Source of the DNA: a virus | Strand: one strand, 5' to 3' | IMG/VR virus record: IMGVR_UViG_3300048927_000230 | Location: 1-63,104 of that record | Length of the DNA stretch: 63,104 nucleotides | In this document: piece after piece, positions 10,759-62,821 of the stretch | Numbering within the stretch: position 1 is the first letter of the stretch | Layout of the letters: each line of letters opens with the position of its first letter | The notes under the pieces: generated by a model | The model's database searches: none | What the model was told of the DNA's origin: nothing | The model's input: the letters and a program-made list of their open reading frames with translations, nothing else | Translations under genes and position numbers: made by a program

Positions 10759-11463
10759 TTATCCGACAGAACCGATAATGCGATGGATGGAGGCAATTTC
10801 TTCTGCATTCACAGAACGGGAACGCAGCTTCTCCGGCGCGCCGATGAAATCGAAGCCTACCGATTCGCCATCAGCGGCCGCGAGTCGCGCTACACCAGCC
10901 TCGCCGTTCTGGAATTTGACGAAGACGAAATCCCCAACGCGCGGCGAAGCCGCTGGGGAAATATAGACCACTTCACCCGCCATATAGCGCGGCGCGTTCA
11001 TATCGTTGGGCACCGTGAAGGCATAAGCGCCACGAACATGCTCAAGAGAAGGCAGAGTAGGTAACATGCCCACTGGATCGCCAGTGAACGGGAGAAACGC
11101 TTGATTCATCGCGATATTTGCCCCGACCGCATATAGGGGGACCATGATTTGGTGATTGCCCCCGCCCGAACCGCCCAGAGAGGTTGGCGGTGCCGATCCC
11201 CCCGGAACATCACCGCTCGCAACCAACTGCGAAATGCTCATTTCAAGCACTTCAGCCAGCTTTATAATGTTGTCTTCGCTGGGCTTTTTGCTTCGTCCAC
11301 TTAAGAAATCGTTAACAAAACTAAGCCCCAAACCCGCCATTTCCGAGGCTTCCCTAGCGGAAACGCGCATCTGCTTAAGCCTGGCCCGCGTCCGCAGCCG
11401 CATCGCGTCAAGCTGCTCAGGGGTCAATCCATCCGTCATAATATCCGTTCCATCCGTTGACAT
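10759..11463 (-). CDS. CI-like phage repressor with an S24-type C-terminal domain
   Basis: The product is 234 residues. An XRE-like helix-turn-helix occupies about 18-82 (RVSAREASEMAGLGLSFVND). A Gly/Pro-rich linker follows, then a LexA/CI-type dimerisation fold at 105-230. At the usual catalytic serine position it reads VPNDMNAPRY, and at the usual lysine position GVARL, so the Ser/Lys dyad seems absent. Self-cleavage is then unlikely. The start at ATG 11463 sits inside operator words; ATG 11439 is an alternative. The operator-rich region upstream and the divergent replication operon mark this as the immunity gene. Confidence 0.88.
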   Translation of the reverse strand: MSTDGTDIMTDGLTPEQLDAMRLRTRARLKQMRVSAREASEMAGLGLSFVNDFLSGRSKKPSEDNIIKLAEVLEMSISQLVASGDVPGGSAPPTSLGGSGGGNHQIMVPLYAVGANIAMNQAFLPFTGDPVGMLPTLPSLEHVRGAYAFTVPNDMNAPRYMAGEVVYISPAASPRVGDFVFVKFQNGEAGVARLAAADGESVGFDFIGAPEKLRSRSVNAEEIASIHRIIGSVG

Positions 11464-31193: not shown

Positions 31194-31237
31194 ATCCGTC
31201 ACCATCCGTTGACACCCGGAAATTATGCGGGTATTGA
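31194..31237 (+). promoter_or_regulatory. Palindromic-spacer promoter with phased ATCCGT words
   Basis: ATCCGT at 31194 and 31204 (10-bp spacing) leads into TTGACA (31209-31214), spacer CCCGGAAATTATGCGGG and TATTGA (31232-31237). The -35 and spacer are identical to those at 56517. It serves the single gene at 31264. Confidence 0.75.
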
Positions 31238-42337: not shown

Positions 42338-42900
42338 CGCACCCCCGCCGCGTGATCCGTGATGCAATCGCTGACGCCATCCTGAACGGTGGCACGAATG
42401 CCGAAGGCCGCGTCTGGGCTTCGCGAGAACCGCCGGTAAAGGTGGAATCCGTCCTGATTGAGCAAGGGCCGGTTGTCCTCGTTTATACTTGCCGGGATTT
42501 CGTTCAGCCGGAGGATTACCCCGTTGCCGGGGCGGGCCGGACTCGTCGCACCGTCGAAATAGCCATTGAAATCACCGCGGCTGGTAACGACGTGGTCGAG
42601 GACAAGCTGGACGACCTTGCGGAGCAGGTTGAAGCCATCATCGACGTCGTGCAAATCCCTGATCAGGCGGCCACCGAAATTCGCTATGTGTCGACCGACA
42701 CGGACATTTCCACCGAGTTTGAAATGCCGCTGGGCGGCGCGCTTATTAAGGTTGAAGCGAAATACTGGAAAAATTGGCGCGTGCAGGACGAGCCGGAATG
42801 GAGCGCGTGTGGCGGCTCCGTCTATTCGGTTCCCTTCATGAATGGCGCGCAAGTTGGTCCCGTGGAATTGGTAAGTTCGGCGGAAGATTGTCCATGTTGA
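42334..42900 (+). CDS. Tail completion/terminator-like protein
   Basis: The product is 188 residues. RRVIRDAIADAILNGGTNAE at the start, VYTCRDFVQPEDY, TVEIAIEITAAGNDVVEDKL and DDLAEQVEAI fit small tail-terminator proteins of the lambda U/gpS type that cap the tail. ATG 42334 overlaps the previous stop. The family assignment is moderate. Confidence 0.65.
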   Translation: MTHPRRVIRDAIADAILNGGTNAEGRVWASREPPVKVESVLIEQGPVVLVYTCRDFVQPEDYPVAGAGRTRRTVEIAIEITAAGNDVVEDKLDDLAEQVEAIIDVVQIPDQAATEIRYVSTDTDISTEFEMPLGGALIKVEAKYWKNWRVQDEPEWSACGGSVYSVPFMNGAQVGPVELVSSAEDCPC

Positions 42901-43532
42901 TGATGGAGCGTGGCGCCGGGGGCGTCGGTTCGCCGGGCATGAACGATCTGGAGCGCCGCAGCGCGGACTCCATTAAATTCGGCGTGGTTCGTGAAGTCGA
43001 TTACTCCCGCAAGCCGCCCTCGGTCCGCGTCGCCATTGGCGACGAGGAGGATGACGAAGGTTGTTTGCTCACTGGCTGGCTGCAATTCGGGGGCGGTCGC
43101 GCGCGGGGGGATAGCGAGTGGCACCCGCCCGAAGAGGGCGAAAAGGTTGTCGTGCTATCCGAGTCCGGCGAGGTGCAAAATGGCATCGTTCTGCCACTTG
43201 GCCTTTATTCGGACGATGACCCCGCGCCCGGCGACAAAGCTGGCCTTTGGCGCAAGTCCTTCGCGGATGGGGCCAAGCTGGAATATGACCGCGATAGCGG
43301 CGAATTAACTTTCGAGGCCATGTCAAAGGGCACGGTCCAGGTAGGTGACGCAACGTTGGCAATCGTGAGTGGCTCGATCACTATGACGGTGGGCGGAGTA
43401 TCGCTTCAAATCTCCTCCAGCGGCGTCGCTATATCCGGCGGTTCCGTCAGCCATGACGGAAAGAACGTCGGCAAGGATCACAGGCACAGCGGTGTTCAGG
43501 CGGGCGGAGCGCAGACAGGCGCGCCGGTTTGA
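42894..43532 (+). CDS. V: Baseplate assembly protein V (tail spike)
   Basis: The product is 212 residues. FGVVREVDYSRKPPSVRVAI, LTGWLQFGGG, PPEEGEKVVVLSESGEVQNG and a C-terminal beta-helix with KDHRHSGVQAGG match P2 gpV: an OB-like N-terminus, then a spike ending in an HxH metal site. It punctures the outer membrane. First visibly P2-like tail gene. ATG 42894 overlaps the previous stop. Confidence 0.88.
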   Translation: MLMMERGAGGVGSPGMNDLERRSADSIKFGVVREVDYSRKPPSVRVAIGDEEDDEGCLLTGWLQFGGGRARGDSEWHPPEEGEKVVVLSESGEVQNGIVLPLGLYSDDDPAPGDKAGLWRKSFADGAKLEYDRDSGELTFEAMSKGTVQVGDATLAIVSGSITMTVGGVSLQISSSGVAISGGSVSHDGKNVGKDHRHSGVQAGGAQTGAPV

Positions 43533-43540
43533 TAATTTTT

Positions 43541-43565
43541 ATCCGTCACATCCGTTGACATCCGT
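43541..43565 (+). promoter_or_regulatory. Phased operator words and promoter before the RNA island
   Basis: ATCCGT at 43541, 43550 and 43560, with TTGACA at 43555-43560. A -10 at the 17-bp position is poor (CAAAAG), so this may act as an operator or need an activator. It is the only such element upstream of the tRNA and tmRNA genes and could control them. Confidence 0.5.
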
Positions 43566-43656
43566 TACCGAATCGGACAAAAGGGCTTCATCGAACGAAC
43601 ACCAACCGAAAGGCGGTGACAGATGCATACCGGAGCCTAAAGCCCTCCAATGCCAT

Positions 43657-43733
43657 TGCAGCGTAGCGCAGCCGGGTAGCGCGGCAGGCTCATAATCTGT
43701 AGGTCCGTGGTTCAAATCCACGCGCTGCAACCA
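43657..43733 (+). tRNA. tRNA with CAU anticodon (Met)
   Basis: Full cloverleaf of 77 nt ending in encoded CCA. Acceptor TGCAGCG/CGCTGCA, D-stem GCGC/GCGC, anticodon stem GCAGG/TCTGT with two G-U pairs, loop CTCATAA, T-arm CGTGG-TTCAAAT-CCACG. The first pair is U1-A72, unusual for elongator tRNA-Met. Could also be read by TilS as tRNA-Ile2; the sequence alone does not decide. Confidence 0.88.
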
Positions 43734-43884
43734 GTTTTCAAGAGTGCGCCGAACGTCGCCATCCTGCGGGATGGATTAACGATGGCAGCCCCCGCCACCG
43801 CCTTAGCTTAGCGCTGGGAAGACCGTGGACGTCGCGAAAGCGGCCACCTGTTAGGCCGGGTGAACGGGGTCATGATTTGCCCGA

Positions 43885-43966
43885 ATGGGTGACGTGGGTG
43901 AGGCGCTGGCGCTGACAGGGACTCCAAATCCTATGTCCGCAGGTTCGACTCCTGCCACCTGTGCCA
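43885..43966 (+). tRNA. tRNA-Trp-like (CCA anticodon), irregular D-arm
   Basis: Anticodon loop CTCCAAA, T-arm GCAGG-TTCGACT-CCTGC, acceptor 3' strand CACCTGT, G73 and encoded CCA. The 5' acceptor strand is ATGGGTG (43885) or GTGGGTG (43894); the second gives a 73-nt RNA with a 3-bp D-stem (GCG-CTGG-CGC). The 3' half is strong, the D-arm weak, so it may be a degenerate or specialised tRNA. Confidence 0.55.
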
Positions 43967-43974
43967 AATACGAG

Positions 43975-44034
43975 TTTCGCCCGGCACGCCGTTATCGCCC
44001 GCGATCAGTAATGTTCGCGGGGTGCCGGGCGAAA
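43975..44034 (+). ncRNA. Long perfect hairpin between tRNA and tmRNA
   Basis: TTTCGCCCGGCAC (43975-43987) pairs perfectly with GTGCCGGGCGAAA (44022-44034), and inside it CCCGCGA (43998-44004) pairs with TCGCGGG (44015-44021). Two stacked stems without a T-run. Two more hairpins follow: TGGTCC/GGACCA near 44053-44067 and GGCTTGCA/TGCAAGCC at 44076-44103. Processing signal or separate RNA. Confidence 0.6.
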
Positions 44035-44119
44035 GATATAATCCTGCGGTATGGTCCTTGCGGACCAGAAAGGCGGGCTTGCAGACTCCGCATAATGCAA
44101 GCCTTGAAGTGGTAGCAGA

Positions 44120-44480
44120 CAATTGATGCTAGAGCCGGGACAGCTACAGACCACGCCGGTATGATGATCGTAATTCGATCAAACTGGATGAAGGCAAGAC
44201 GCGGGGGCAGTACCCGCCGCCTCCACCATCACCGCTACGGGCGCATGCGAGCCGTACTATCTGTGCCGAAGATTTGGTTCGTTCGGAATGTCAGATCGGT
44301 GTTGATGGGGGCGAACTAGGATCGATTGCCAACGGAAGGGATGAGCGCGATCAAGTGAGGCCCGGCTTTGACAGGACCACAAGACTTAACCGTCAACGAC
44401 AACGACGCCCCTGTGGCGTTCCGTCTGGCCGCTTAATCGCGACCAAGGGGTTGCCCGGCACCTTGCAACAGAAGCCGGGT
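44120..44480 (+). ncRNA. ssrA: Circularly permuted (two-piece) tmRNA
   Basis: The acceptor piece comes first: GACGCGGG, T-stem GCGGG/CCCGC (44201-44217), acceptor 3' strand CGCCTCC (44218-44224), A73, CCA (44226-44228). The coding piece starts GGGGGCG (44307-44313), pairing fully with CGCCTCC and giving G3-U70, the alanyl-tRNA synthetase identity pair. TTGCC (44326-44330) pairs with GGCAA (44193-44197) as helix P2. The tag frame runs GTC 44392 to TAA 44434-44436: VNDNDAPVAFRLAA. It would rescue stalled ribosomes together with SmpB. Ends are approximate. Confidence 0.85.
44392..44436 (+). other. tmRNA tag-peptide reading frame
   Basis: Resume codon GTC (Val), 14 codons, stop TAA. The tag contains the NDN core of alphaproteobacterial tags and ends in -LAA, the Clp-protease degron form. 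A Val resume codon is unusual, since most tmRNAs resume on Ala or Gly (GCA, GCC, GGC). Confidence 0.75.
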
Positions 44481-44489
44481 TTGAGTTTT

Positions 44490-44563
44490 GTCCGCGAGGT
44501 AGTTCAACGGTAGAACGGAGCATCCCGCCCAAATGCAGGTTCGACTCCTGCCCTCAAGGCCAG
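44490..44563 (+). tRNA. tRNA-Gly-like element, probably degenerate
   Basis: A perfect D-arm (GTTC-AACGGTA-GAAC) and a perfect T-arm (GCAGG-TTCGACT-CCTGC, identical to the tRNA-Trp-like gene) with encoded CCA. But the anticodon region is about five bases too short, and the acceptor pairs only in its inner four positions. Looks like a tRNA-Gly pseudogene or a tRNA mimic. Confidence 0.4.
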
Positions 44564-44564
44564 T

Positions 44565-45450
44565 TTCGCCCGCAAGGGCGTCCGAGCAGGGGGTTTCCTG
44601 CCCATCGGGTTCATAGCCTCGTGGGGTCACTACTGGAAACAGCGGGACGGAGTAGTGACCGGCCCCCGCACCCCGCGAAGTCTAGCTGGCGACAAGCGAG
44701 CCGCGGCGCGACTGCGTTAAAGTTGCGACCCCTTCCCACGGGCGGAAAAATGGGCGTCGGCTCCCGACGAAAGTGGAAGGAATTCCACAACAAGCAGACA
44801 GCCGGAAAGACGGTGCTGGCGTAGCGCTGCGCTAGTCCGGGGTGGGATACGTCGCGATTACGTGGCCGCGACCCCGACCAAGATAGCCTTGCAATCTCTC
44901 CTCCGTTGCAAGGTGGGCGACGTGGCTTTCAGCCGACCCCCTTAAGCGTCGCCCAACATTATCAGCAGCAACGACGGGCCATTCAGTGTCCTGTCGGTTG
45001 GCTGATGGCGGTAATGGCAAGCGACGTGGCCCGCAGGACGTGAAGCGCGTTATGGGTGGCTCCGGTAATCCGGGACGGCAAGCGTTCGGCGCTCCGAGTG
45101 GGAGTATCCCCCACGCCCGGCGCCACCCATTTTCAGCCGGAATGGTCGTGATACCCGACCGTTGGTGATGCGCCCTTGGCCGGGCGGCGCAGCAGGAGCC
45201 GTAACCATTCGGCACGGATCGAACCCCGCATGTGTGCGGAAGCGTCACCGAATTTAGAGTTTCCTTGCGTCCGCGCAGGGCCGAAGCAGAGGCGAGTCCG
45301 ATCAGTCGCCAGCCGTGGTTGATGCCTGACGAGGCATGTAGGAGCAAATCGGTAAATCACTGTTCGGGGCAAATGGGTGGCGGCGCGAAGCTGGAGCGAC
45401 GGCGCAAGGCGATAACGCCGCCACCCAAACCGCCCAATCCCCTGCCATCC
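44565..45450 (+). ncRNA. Long highly structured noncoding RNA candidate
   Basis: About 890 bases with no credible gene but many perfect stems: CGCCC-GCAA-GGGCG (44567-44580); GGTCACTACT/AGTAGTGACC (44625-44634, 44651-44660); GTGGAA/TTCCAC near 44773-44788; GTCGCG/CGCGAC (44851, 44867); CTTGCAA/TTGCAAG (44888, 44906); GGGCGACG/CGTCGCCC (44915, 44947); ATGGGTGGC/GCCACCCAT (45052, 45122); TGGGTGGCGGCG/CGCCGCCACCCA (45374, 45416). Next to phage tRNAs this recalls giant ornate RNAs such as GOLLD or ROOL, by analogy only. Confidence 0.5.
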
Positions 45451-45469
45451 CCCCGCCTATCGTCCGCCA

Positions 45470-45826
45470 ATGGCAGGCATGGACCGTAACACCGGCAAAG
45501 CCCTTATCGGCTTCGCGCATGTTGAGCAAAGCATAGGTGTTTTGCTGACGACGCCGCGCATGCGGCGGGTGATGCGACGCGCATTCGGATCGGACCTTGT
45601 TCGCTTGGTCGATGCGCCCATCAATCAAGCCTCTCTCATTGAATTTTATGCCGCCACGGCAAAGGCAATCAATATGTACGAGCCACGGTTTCGCGTGTCC
45701 CGCCTGACGGTGGAGGGCGCCGAGCGGGGCCGTATCAAGCTGCGAGCGGAAGGCACGTATTATCCGCGTGGGCATCTGGGGGACTTCTCCATTTCGTCGG
45801 CGGAAGTCACGGCGGTGCTGCTGTGA
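45470..45826 (+). CDS. W: Baseplate protein W (gp25-like)
   Basis: The product is 118 residues. ALIGFAHVEQSIGVLLTTPR, MRRVMRRAFGSDLVRLVDAP and a C-terminal beta strand match the GPW/gp25 wedge family. Structural part of the baseplate. Starts at ATG 45470 right after the RNA island and overlaps gene J. Confidence 0.9.
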   Translation: MAGMDRNTGKALIGFAHVEQSIGVLLTTPRMRRVMRRAFGSDLVRLVDAPINQASLIEFYAATAKAINMYEPRFRVSRLTVEGAERGRIKLRAEGTYYPRGHLGDFSISSAEVTAVLL

Positions 45827-56492: not shown

Positions 56493-56545
56493 TCCGTCAG
56501 CATCCGTCACCATCCGTTGACACCCGGAAATTATGCGGGTATCAA
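56492..56545 (+). promoter_or_regulatory. Palindromic-spacer promoter with phased words, antirepressor cassette
   Basis: ATCCGT at 56492, 56502 and 56512, exactly 10 bp apart. Then TTGACA (56517-56522), spacer CCCGGAAATTATGCGGG and TATCAA (56540-56545). The sequence is nearly identical to that at 31209. It leads through a 250-base leader to the BRO gene at 56797. Confidence 0.75.
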
Positions 56546-56796
56546 AATCGTGTTGCAATTGGGAAGTAGGTTTGTCATCTAGCCCGTGTCTGGCAAAATC
56601 CAGGCAAGGGATTGGAACCCCTATCACCAATGAGCGCACCCGCGCCAAACTTCGTCGTTAGGCGCGGTTTCTTATGGTCGGGCATGTTGCGAGCCTCTTC
56701 GGGGGCGCCGTTCTCATTGGCGGTAGTTCCAATCGCGGCATGTCCGGCCACCAAGTATTGGAACACTTGACCCGGACGCAATTGAAGAGGCGTCCA
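56546..56796 (+). other. Leader of the antirepressor gene
   Basis: About 250 bases without a gene. GATTGGAAC (near 56610) and GTTCCAATC (near 56727) are inverted copies, and several shorter stems lie between them. A minus-strand T-arm-like element is also visible. It may fold into a regulatory leader that controls antirepressor translation. Confidence 0.4.
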
Positions 56797-57567
56797 ATGA
56801 GCAATGCACTCGTTTCATATCAGTTCGAAGAAAATCCCGTCCGCATAGAGGTGATTGCGGGCACCCCCTGGTTCGTCGCGGGTGACGTTGCCCGTGCCCT
56901 TGGCTATGCGCGACAGCAAGAAATGTCCCGTAATCTCGATGATGATGAAAAGGGGGTGCACAATGTGCACTCCCTTGGCGGGATGCAGGAAATGACAGTC
57001 ATTTCCGAAAGCGGCCTATACGCGGCCATCCTGAAAAGCCGCAAGCCGCAGGCCAAGCGCTTTCGCCGCTGGGTCACGGGCGAAGTTCTGCCGTCGATCC
57101 GCAAGACCGGCTCTTATTCGGCCAGCCCGGTCGAGGCAACGCTGCCGCCGCGCTATTGGGGAACGCCGCTCGTCTACATGTTCTTTCGTGATCATCAAAT
57201 CCGGGCGATCGGGGACGCGACGGGGCGGACCTTCTATTCCCTGCACGACATAGCTGCCGCGCTGGGCACGACTGATTTGCGCGAATTGTTCCGCATGGTT
57301 CCGCAAGAGTATCGGGCAATGGCGTCGTTCGATAAGCGCTGGCCCACTATCGCAGTGATTGACGCTGGATTTGAGGAAATGCTTTTGGGGTGCGCCGATG
57401 AGTTGGGCATGCCCGAAGACCTTACCCGCGAAATGGCGGGGTGGTTCAAAACTGTGGCCTGCGCCCGCATGACGAAGGAAAATCAGTTGCGCAAGGCGCC
57501 GCGCTTCCGCCCGGAACTGCTGCGGCCACCCAACCAGACCCCCGCGCTGCCACATATCGCCCCATAG
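56797..57567 (+). CDS. BRO-N domain antirepressor
   Basis: The product is 256 residues. The N-terminal 110 residues are BRO-N (YQFEENPVRIEVIAGTPWFV, GDVARALGYARQQ, SESGLYAAILKSRKPQAKRF, RRWVTGEVLPSIRKTGSY). The C-terminal half has VYMFFRDHQIRAIGDATGRT and HDIAAALGTTD. Such proteins oppose phage repressors in Enterobacteria. AGAGG lies upstream. Its promoter carries repressor-type operators, so repression and antirepression cross-regulate (inference). Confidence 0.85.
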   Translation: MSNALVSYQFEENPVRIEVIAGTPWFVAGDVARALGYARQQEMSRNLDDDEKGVHNVHSLGGMQEMTVISESGLYAAILKSRKPQAKRFRRWVTGEVLPSIRKTGSYSASPVEATLPPRYWGTPLVYMFFRDHQIRAIGDATGRTFYSLHDIAAALGTTDLRELFRMVPQEYRAMASFDKRWPTIAVIDAGFEEMLLGCADELGMPEDLTREMAGWFKTVACARMTKENQLRKAPRFRPELLRPPNQTPALPHIAP

Positions 57568-62804: not shown

Positions 62805-62821
62805 GCATCCGTAATGGAACC
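62805..62821. repeat. attR core
   Basis: Second perfect copy of GCATCCGTAATGGAACC. Phage genes end about 115 bases before it and host sequence follows. Integration was intergenic, upstream of the lipoprotein gene at 62960. Confidence 0.9.

Follow-up and report, generated by a model that had tools for sequence, protein, structure and literature searches.

A two-piece tmRNA gene with a valine-first tag in a temperate myophage that looks integrated

The window (the whole stretch of DNA that we analyzed) covers one entire virus record (63,104 bases; 60% G+C). It is a temperate myophage, in which we found genes for a tyrosine integrase, repressor, terminase, portal, head protein, baseplate, sheath, and tape measure. 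An exact direct repeat of 17 bp lies at its two ends (about 1e-4 such repeats are expected by chance between two 1.5-kb ends), and we therefore read the two copies as candidate attachment sites. The right copy is followed by a fragment of a lipoprotein-like open frame, probably a host gene, for which the best plasmid hits come from Sphingomonas (25 residues, 68-72%). The prophage proposed in the initial annotation agrees with the integrase, the repressor, and the flanking repeats: the element looks integrated, tentatively in a sphingomonad-like alphaproteobacterium, the host call being weak. The features of the element that matter here are:

149-165: candidate left attachment site GCATCCGTAATGGAACC (17-bp exact direct repeat)
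1120-2322, + strand: tyrosine integrase
10759-11463, - strand: repressor
42774-43532, + strand: baseplate spike protein gpV
43533-45469, + strand: RNA-rich insert of 1.9 kb between gpV and gp25/gpW (tRNA-Met, tRNA-Trp-like element, tmRNA, tRNA-Gly-like element)
43657-43733, + strand: tRNA with CAT anticodon (tRNA-Met; ARAGORN and Rfam)
43894-43967, + strand: tRNA-Trp(CCA)-like element with a weak D arm
44493-44559, + strand: tRNA-Gly-like element with a shrunken anticodon arm
45470-45826, + strand: baseplate wedge protein gp25/gpW
62805-62821: candidate right attachment site (the same 17 bp, exact direct repeat)

In two related contigs (L129 and L132) the gpV and gp25/gpW genes are adjacent, about 50 bp apart and without the insert. 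The RNA block has therefore been inserted into a conserved late operon. No permuted tmRNA was found in the records brought in via related terminase and gpJ proteins.

Within this block the two-piece (circularly permuted) tmRNA gene with its own tag, as claimed in the initial annotation, is confirmed by two Rfam models and by direct reading of the sequence. In a search of the 63 kb, RF01849 (alpha_tmRNA) matched 44119-44482 (+ strand) with 87 bits (cut-off 50, E 3.6e-22) and RF04321 (tmRNA_permuted) matched 44166-44436 (+ strand) with 97 bits (cut-off 47, E 1.3e-17); these matches are far beyond chance, and both were reproduced on a second run. From 5′ to 3′, the T arm is followed by the acceptor 3′ strand, ACCA, a 78-nt spacer, and a coding piece that begins GGGGGCG; the CCA, this start, the seven acceptor pairs, G3-U70, P2, and the tag had all been read correctly. 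The parts of the gene are:

44119-44482, + strand: precursor of the permuted tmRNA (ssrA), full RF01849 match
44166-44228, + strand: core of the acceptor piece (strands GATCG and GGCAA, T arm, CGCCTCC, A73-CCA), 5′ end approximate
44166-44170 with 44348-44352, + strand: distal long-range helix (GATCG with CGATC), joining the two pieces
44193-44197 with 44326-44330, + strand: helix P2 (GGCAA with TTGCC), joining the two pieces
44201-44217, + strand: T arm GCGGG-GGCAGTA-CCCGC, read on the sequence
44218-44224, + strand: acceptor 3′ strand CGCCTCC, read on the sequence
44225-44228, + strand: A73-CCA, read on the sequence
44229-44306, + strand: spacer of 78 nt, presumed to be removed by tRNA-processing enzymes
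44307-44482, + strand: coding piece (GGGGGCG, D-arm analogue AACTAGGATCGA, P2, tag frame, 3′ hairpin)
44307-44313, + strand: acceptor 5′ strand GGGGGCG, 7/7 pairs with G3.U70
44392-44433, + strand: tag frame encoding VNDNDAPVAFRLAA, stop TAA at 44434-44436
44453-44480, + strand: 3′-terminal hairpin; its loop is the conserved CAACAGAA, as is typical of alpha tmRNAs

The tag frame (GTC AAC GAC AAC GAC GCC CCT GTG GCG TTC CGT CTG GCC GCT TAA) is intact, with LAA before the stop, i.e., a hydrophobic-Ala-Ala end. The Ala resume codon that is usual in alphaproteobacteria, though not strictly defining, is absent: GTC (Val) stands at tag residue 1, where the Rfam consensus has GCa, and Asp stands at residue 5, where the consensus has uaU (Tyr). 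No promoter clearly above chance was found for the tmRNA (one weak match versus 0.9 expected). Further downstream, 44851-44867 and 44902-44915 are complementary to the 3′ part of the tmRNA (44427-44443 and 44459-44472), in non-nested order.

To place this copy among its relatives, we searched viral contigs for exact copies of the T arm CGCGGGGGCAGTACCCGC, which gave at least 120 stretches; among the matches listed together with the cultured phages, 89 distinct mature copies could be parsed for structure. These 89 copies contain ten versions of the acceptor stem, for example GGGGGCG/CGCCTCC, GGGCCTG/CAGGTCC, GGGCTGG/CCAGTCC, and GGGAGCG/CGCTTCC, in which pairs 4-69, 5-68, and 6-67 covary with both sides changing. 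The full acceptor pairing is partly built in, because the parser chose the best-pairing 5′ strand; the invariance of G3.U70, which is the alanine identity pair, was not a selection criterion of the parser, and the pair is kept in 89/89 copies, as is A73-CCA. For P2, 44% of the copies exceeded the threshold with their own strands versus 13% with swapped strands, and the window’s own P2 beats all swapped pairings. The distal helix was weakly above swaps in the bulk test (mean 5.41 versus 4.93 over the same 89 copies), probably because the region boundaries are crude; its partners change together, GATCG/CGATC of the window being replaced by CGTCG/CGACG in CcrPW and by GAGCG/CGCTC in Mesorhizobium phage Cp1R7A-A1.

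The closest relatives among the matches listed are other viral copies, with 71-72% identity to L100 and Erythrobacter phage L02, and in a tree from which the tag columns had been removed the window copy groups with mostly viral rows in a supported set of 26. Tags like that of the window are found in L100 (VNDNDAPVAYKIAA) and in the cultured Caulobacter phages CcrPW (VNDNDAPVMEQRLAA) and CcrColossus (VNDNDAPVMEQLLAA). No match to a viral tmRNA copy was found in the plasmids searched.

Among the matches listed and the cultured phages, 18 of 95 parsed copies have a Val-first tag, 17 of them with GTC, and the carriers include the cultured phages CcrPW, CcrColossus, Erythrobacter L02, and XM05. Residue 5 is D or E in 16/18 Val-first tags versus 11/77 other tags (Fisher p 2.7e-9 over these 95 copies), a p value that overstates independence, because the tag rows are related, and that concerns a residue chosen for the test after the tags had been seen. 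The tree without tag columns places 14 of the 18 Val rows in the one supported set of 26 (98/82); grouping counts of Val versus Ser on this tree omit unlabelled rows and are therefore uninformative. Almost every viral copy among the matches listed retains the frame, the stop, and an LAA, IAA, or VAA end (LAA in 72/95). For bacterial tags our baseline was the Rfam consensus and one Sinorhizobium copy; in addition, an exact-pattern scan for VNDN[DE]APVA over 84,980 bacterial and archaeal species genomes gave five unrelated hits, all outside tmRNAs and outside alphaproteobacteria. This viral V-N-D-N-[D/E] tag class may be new. Ser-first tags were also considered as an alternative resume codon and rejected: the codon immediately before the Ser is GC-rich, mostly GCA (Ala), so resumption probably starts one codon earlier in these copies.

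In E. coli, the SspB adaptor contacts the start of the coded tag and its aromatic residue, and ClpX contacts the last three residues. By this measure the phage tags alter the residues that SspB would contact and keep the ClpX-contact end. We tentatively suggest, as one possibility read from the tags, that a viral class of tmRNA with a degradation signal of its own (V-N-D-N-[D/E]...) has arisen in phages of alphaproteobacteria, in which class the adaptor half is altered, the ClpX end is kept, and a different proteolytic route may be taken; if so, proteins rescued by the phage RNA would follow another route than host-tagged ones. The initial annotation had suggested that a prophage copy with a Val resume codon could alter ribosome rescue. 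A Val codon, GTC, does stand at the resume position, but this is not unprecedented: H. pylori uses GUA, and in E. coli GUA and GUC both work, although GUA gave some breakage of the tag (PMC2862035). The H. pylori tmRNA shares the Val resume codon with that of the window; unlike it, the H. pylori RNA is one-piece and its tag is unrelated. With Val in place of Ala, resumption could be weaker.

Phage-borne two-piece copies of tmRNA, an RNA that releases stalled ribosomes and tags their incomplete proteins for degradation, are already known. The earlier view that phage tmRNAs are mainly one-piece genes is out of date: a 2022 paper counts 133 unique phage tmRNAs, of which 53, mostly aquatic, are two-piece (PMC9004378), the tmRNA with which Lacusarx was published (PMC5648845) is permuted too, and a 2025 database holds 79 phage tmRNA sequences of all forms (PMC11915505). 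The initial annotation is thus supported in part. In the literature searched, most subscription journals lying outside it, we found no description of Val-first phage tags or of a permuted tmRNA in a prophage that looks integrated. To the question of why phages carry tmRNA, the window adds the case of an apparently integrated temperate phage.

The gene resembles the alphaproteobacterial two-piece tmRNA (RF01849; Caulobacter ssrA) in its piece order, G3.U70 acceptor stem, T arm, P2, NDN tag core, LAA end, and CAACAGAA 3′ hairpin, and differs from it in its score (87 bits versus 310 for Sinorhizobium), in Val at the resume position, and in Asp at residue 5. Like the two-piece tmRNAs of Melnitz, Pelagibacter phages, and cyanophages (PMC9004378), it is permuted and borne by a tailed phage, with SmpB not found in the records checked; those phages are mostly marine or aquatic and Melnitz is without integration genes, whereas the window is a temperate myophage that looks integrated and, also unlike them, has no riboswitch match in Rfam. 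Nearest relatives of the mature sequence, among the copies compared, are in CbK-like and related phages (Lacusarx, CcrPW, CcrColossus, Erythrobacter L02, and XM05), most of which have tags beginning VNDNDAPV or VNDND, and some of which have the gene in or near tRNA genes. These are large siphophages of 130-310 kb, with the gene near tRNA clusters or replication genes, whereas that of the window is in the baseplate operon.

ARAGORN called the tRNA-Met alone in the window and missed the permuted tmRNA, which suggests that ARAGORN alone undercounts phage permuted tmRNAs. Unannotated permuted tmRNAs were present, among the stretches examined, in the Caulobacter phages CcrPW, CcrColossus, CcrBL10, CcrRogue, and RB23, the Erythrobacter phages L02 and XM05, and Mesorhizobium phage Cp1R7A-A1. 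Caulobacter is a model for two-piece tmRNA, ClpXP, and SspB, and with close tag relatives in its cultured phages CcrPW and CcrColossus, gene deletion and tag mass spectrometry are therefore practical in a laboratory strain.

No SmpB gene was found in the window or in another 26 records of phages or viruses, almost all of which carry a tmRNA, while positive controls were found in both searches; the phage RNA would therefore need host SmpB, and we infer that it would also need host AlaRS, processing enzymes, and ClpXP. The best explanation, to which we give a probability of about 0.8, is that the phage carries a genuine two-piece tmRNA gene of alphaproteobacterial type, with the rescue mechanism proposed here; the tmRNA on this prophage is real and probably working. 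The precursor would be transcribed as a part of the late baseplate operon or as an insert in it, its spacer would be cut out by host tRNA-processing enzymes, and the two pieces would be held together via the acceptor stem, P2, and the distal helix. Host AlaRS would charge the RNA (G3.U70, A73), and host SmpB would bring it to ribosomes stalled on non-stop mRNA, where translation would resume at GUC. Rescued proteins are predicted to end in Ala-VNDNDAPVAFRLAA, with tag-ended peptides carrying AVNDNDAPVAFRLAA (or AVNDNDAPVMEQLLAA) ends, and the -LAA end would hand them to host ClpXP, and their handling by host SspB is probably different, given the changed first half of the tag (Val replacing Ala, and an acidic residue replacing the aromatic one at residue 5). 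Many stalls arise during infection or induction, as mRNA decays and templates run short, and the phage would in this way keep ribosomes free; in E. coli, propagation of phage requires functional SsrA (PMC2862035).

The phage RNA might instead act mainly as a decoy or inhibitor, titrating SmpB or competing with the host tmRNA and so blunting the tagging of phage proteins. There are precedents in the tag-less, tRNA-like tmRNA of mycobacteriophage DS6A, which inhibits tmRNA (PMC4131195; PMC11915505), and in the suggestion of the Lacusarx authors that its tmRNA counteracts host tagging (PMC5648845), and the absence of SmpB from the window and the further records fits this as well. A pure decoy would not need a tag, however, so the tag frame, stop, and end kept in nearly all viral copies count against it, and we consider it unlikely.

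Still less probable is a passenger, that is, a host ssrA copy that the phage acquired when it excised imprecisely and that is now degenerating. Integration at ssrA is common among mobile elements, the Melnitz authors consider an imprecise-excision route (PMC9004378), and the two adjoining tRNA-like elements look degenerate. However, all key elements of the tmRNA are intact, its nearest relatives among the matches listed are viral (L100 and Erythrobacter L02, as above), and the integrase and candidate attachment sites are at the ends of the element, at least 18 kb away, which argues against a scar of integration at ssrA. The tmRNA was likewise rejected as the attachment site itself, since the 17-bp repeat is outside ssrA. 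A chance match or misread tRNA cluster, for which the missing ARAGORN call might speak, is refuted by the two Rfam scores, the conserved G3.U70, and the recurrence of the tag in other phages.

Some of the records examined have further genes beside the permuted tmRNA. In Erythrobacter phages L02 (L154) and XM05 (L155) and in L077 (record G029), the tmRNA has a gene for an HslV-like peptidase (phrog_1040) at a distance of 0.5-1.1 kb, and a tagging RNA beside such a peptidase might constitute a phage-made degradation route; as a general partner of the tmRNA we rejected this peptidase, which is far away or absent in other records and absent from the window. In DSS3_MAL1 (L165), a GOLLD RNA (169-632) lies just upstream of the permuted tmRNA, with a tRNA-Arg inside the GOLLD.

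We also observed several other RNA elements in the window. The tRNA-Trp(CCA)-like element is ∼80% identical to the pseudo-tRNA-CCA of Bradyrhizobium phage BDU-MI-1, which also follows a tRNA-Met, and the T arm GCAGGTTCGACTCCTGCC of the tRNA-Gly-like element at 44493-44559 is identical to the T arm at 43939-43956. Between the tRNA-Trp-like element and the tmRNA, 43975-44034 forms a very stable hairpin (-39.2 kcal/mol, z -5.4). A 41-nt exact direct repeat (ATCCGTCACCATCCGTTGACACCCGGAAATTATGCGGGTAT) at 31194-31234 and 56502-56542 is possibly a shared promoter or operator; one copy is upstream of a C4-type antisense RNA (56670-56755, 55.5 bits), which overlaps the start of a Bro-N/Ant open frame (56674-57567), an arrangement as in P1/P7-type immunity regions.
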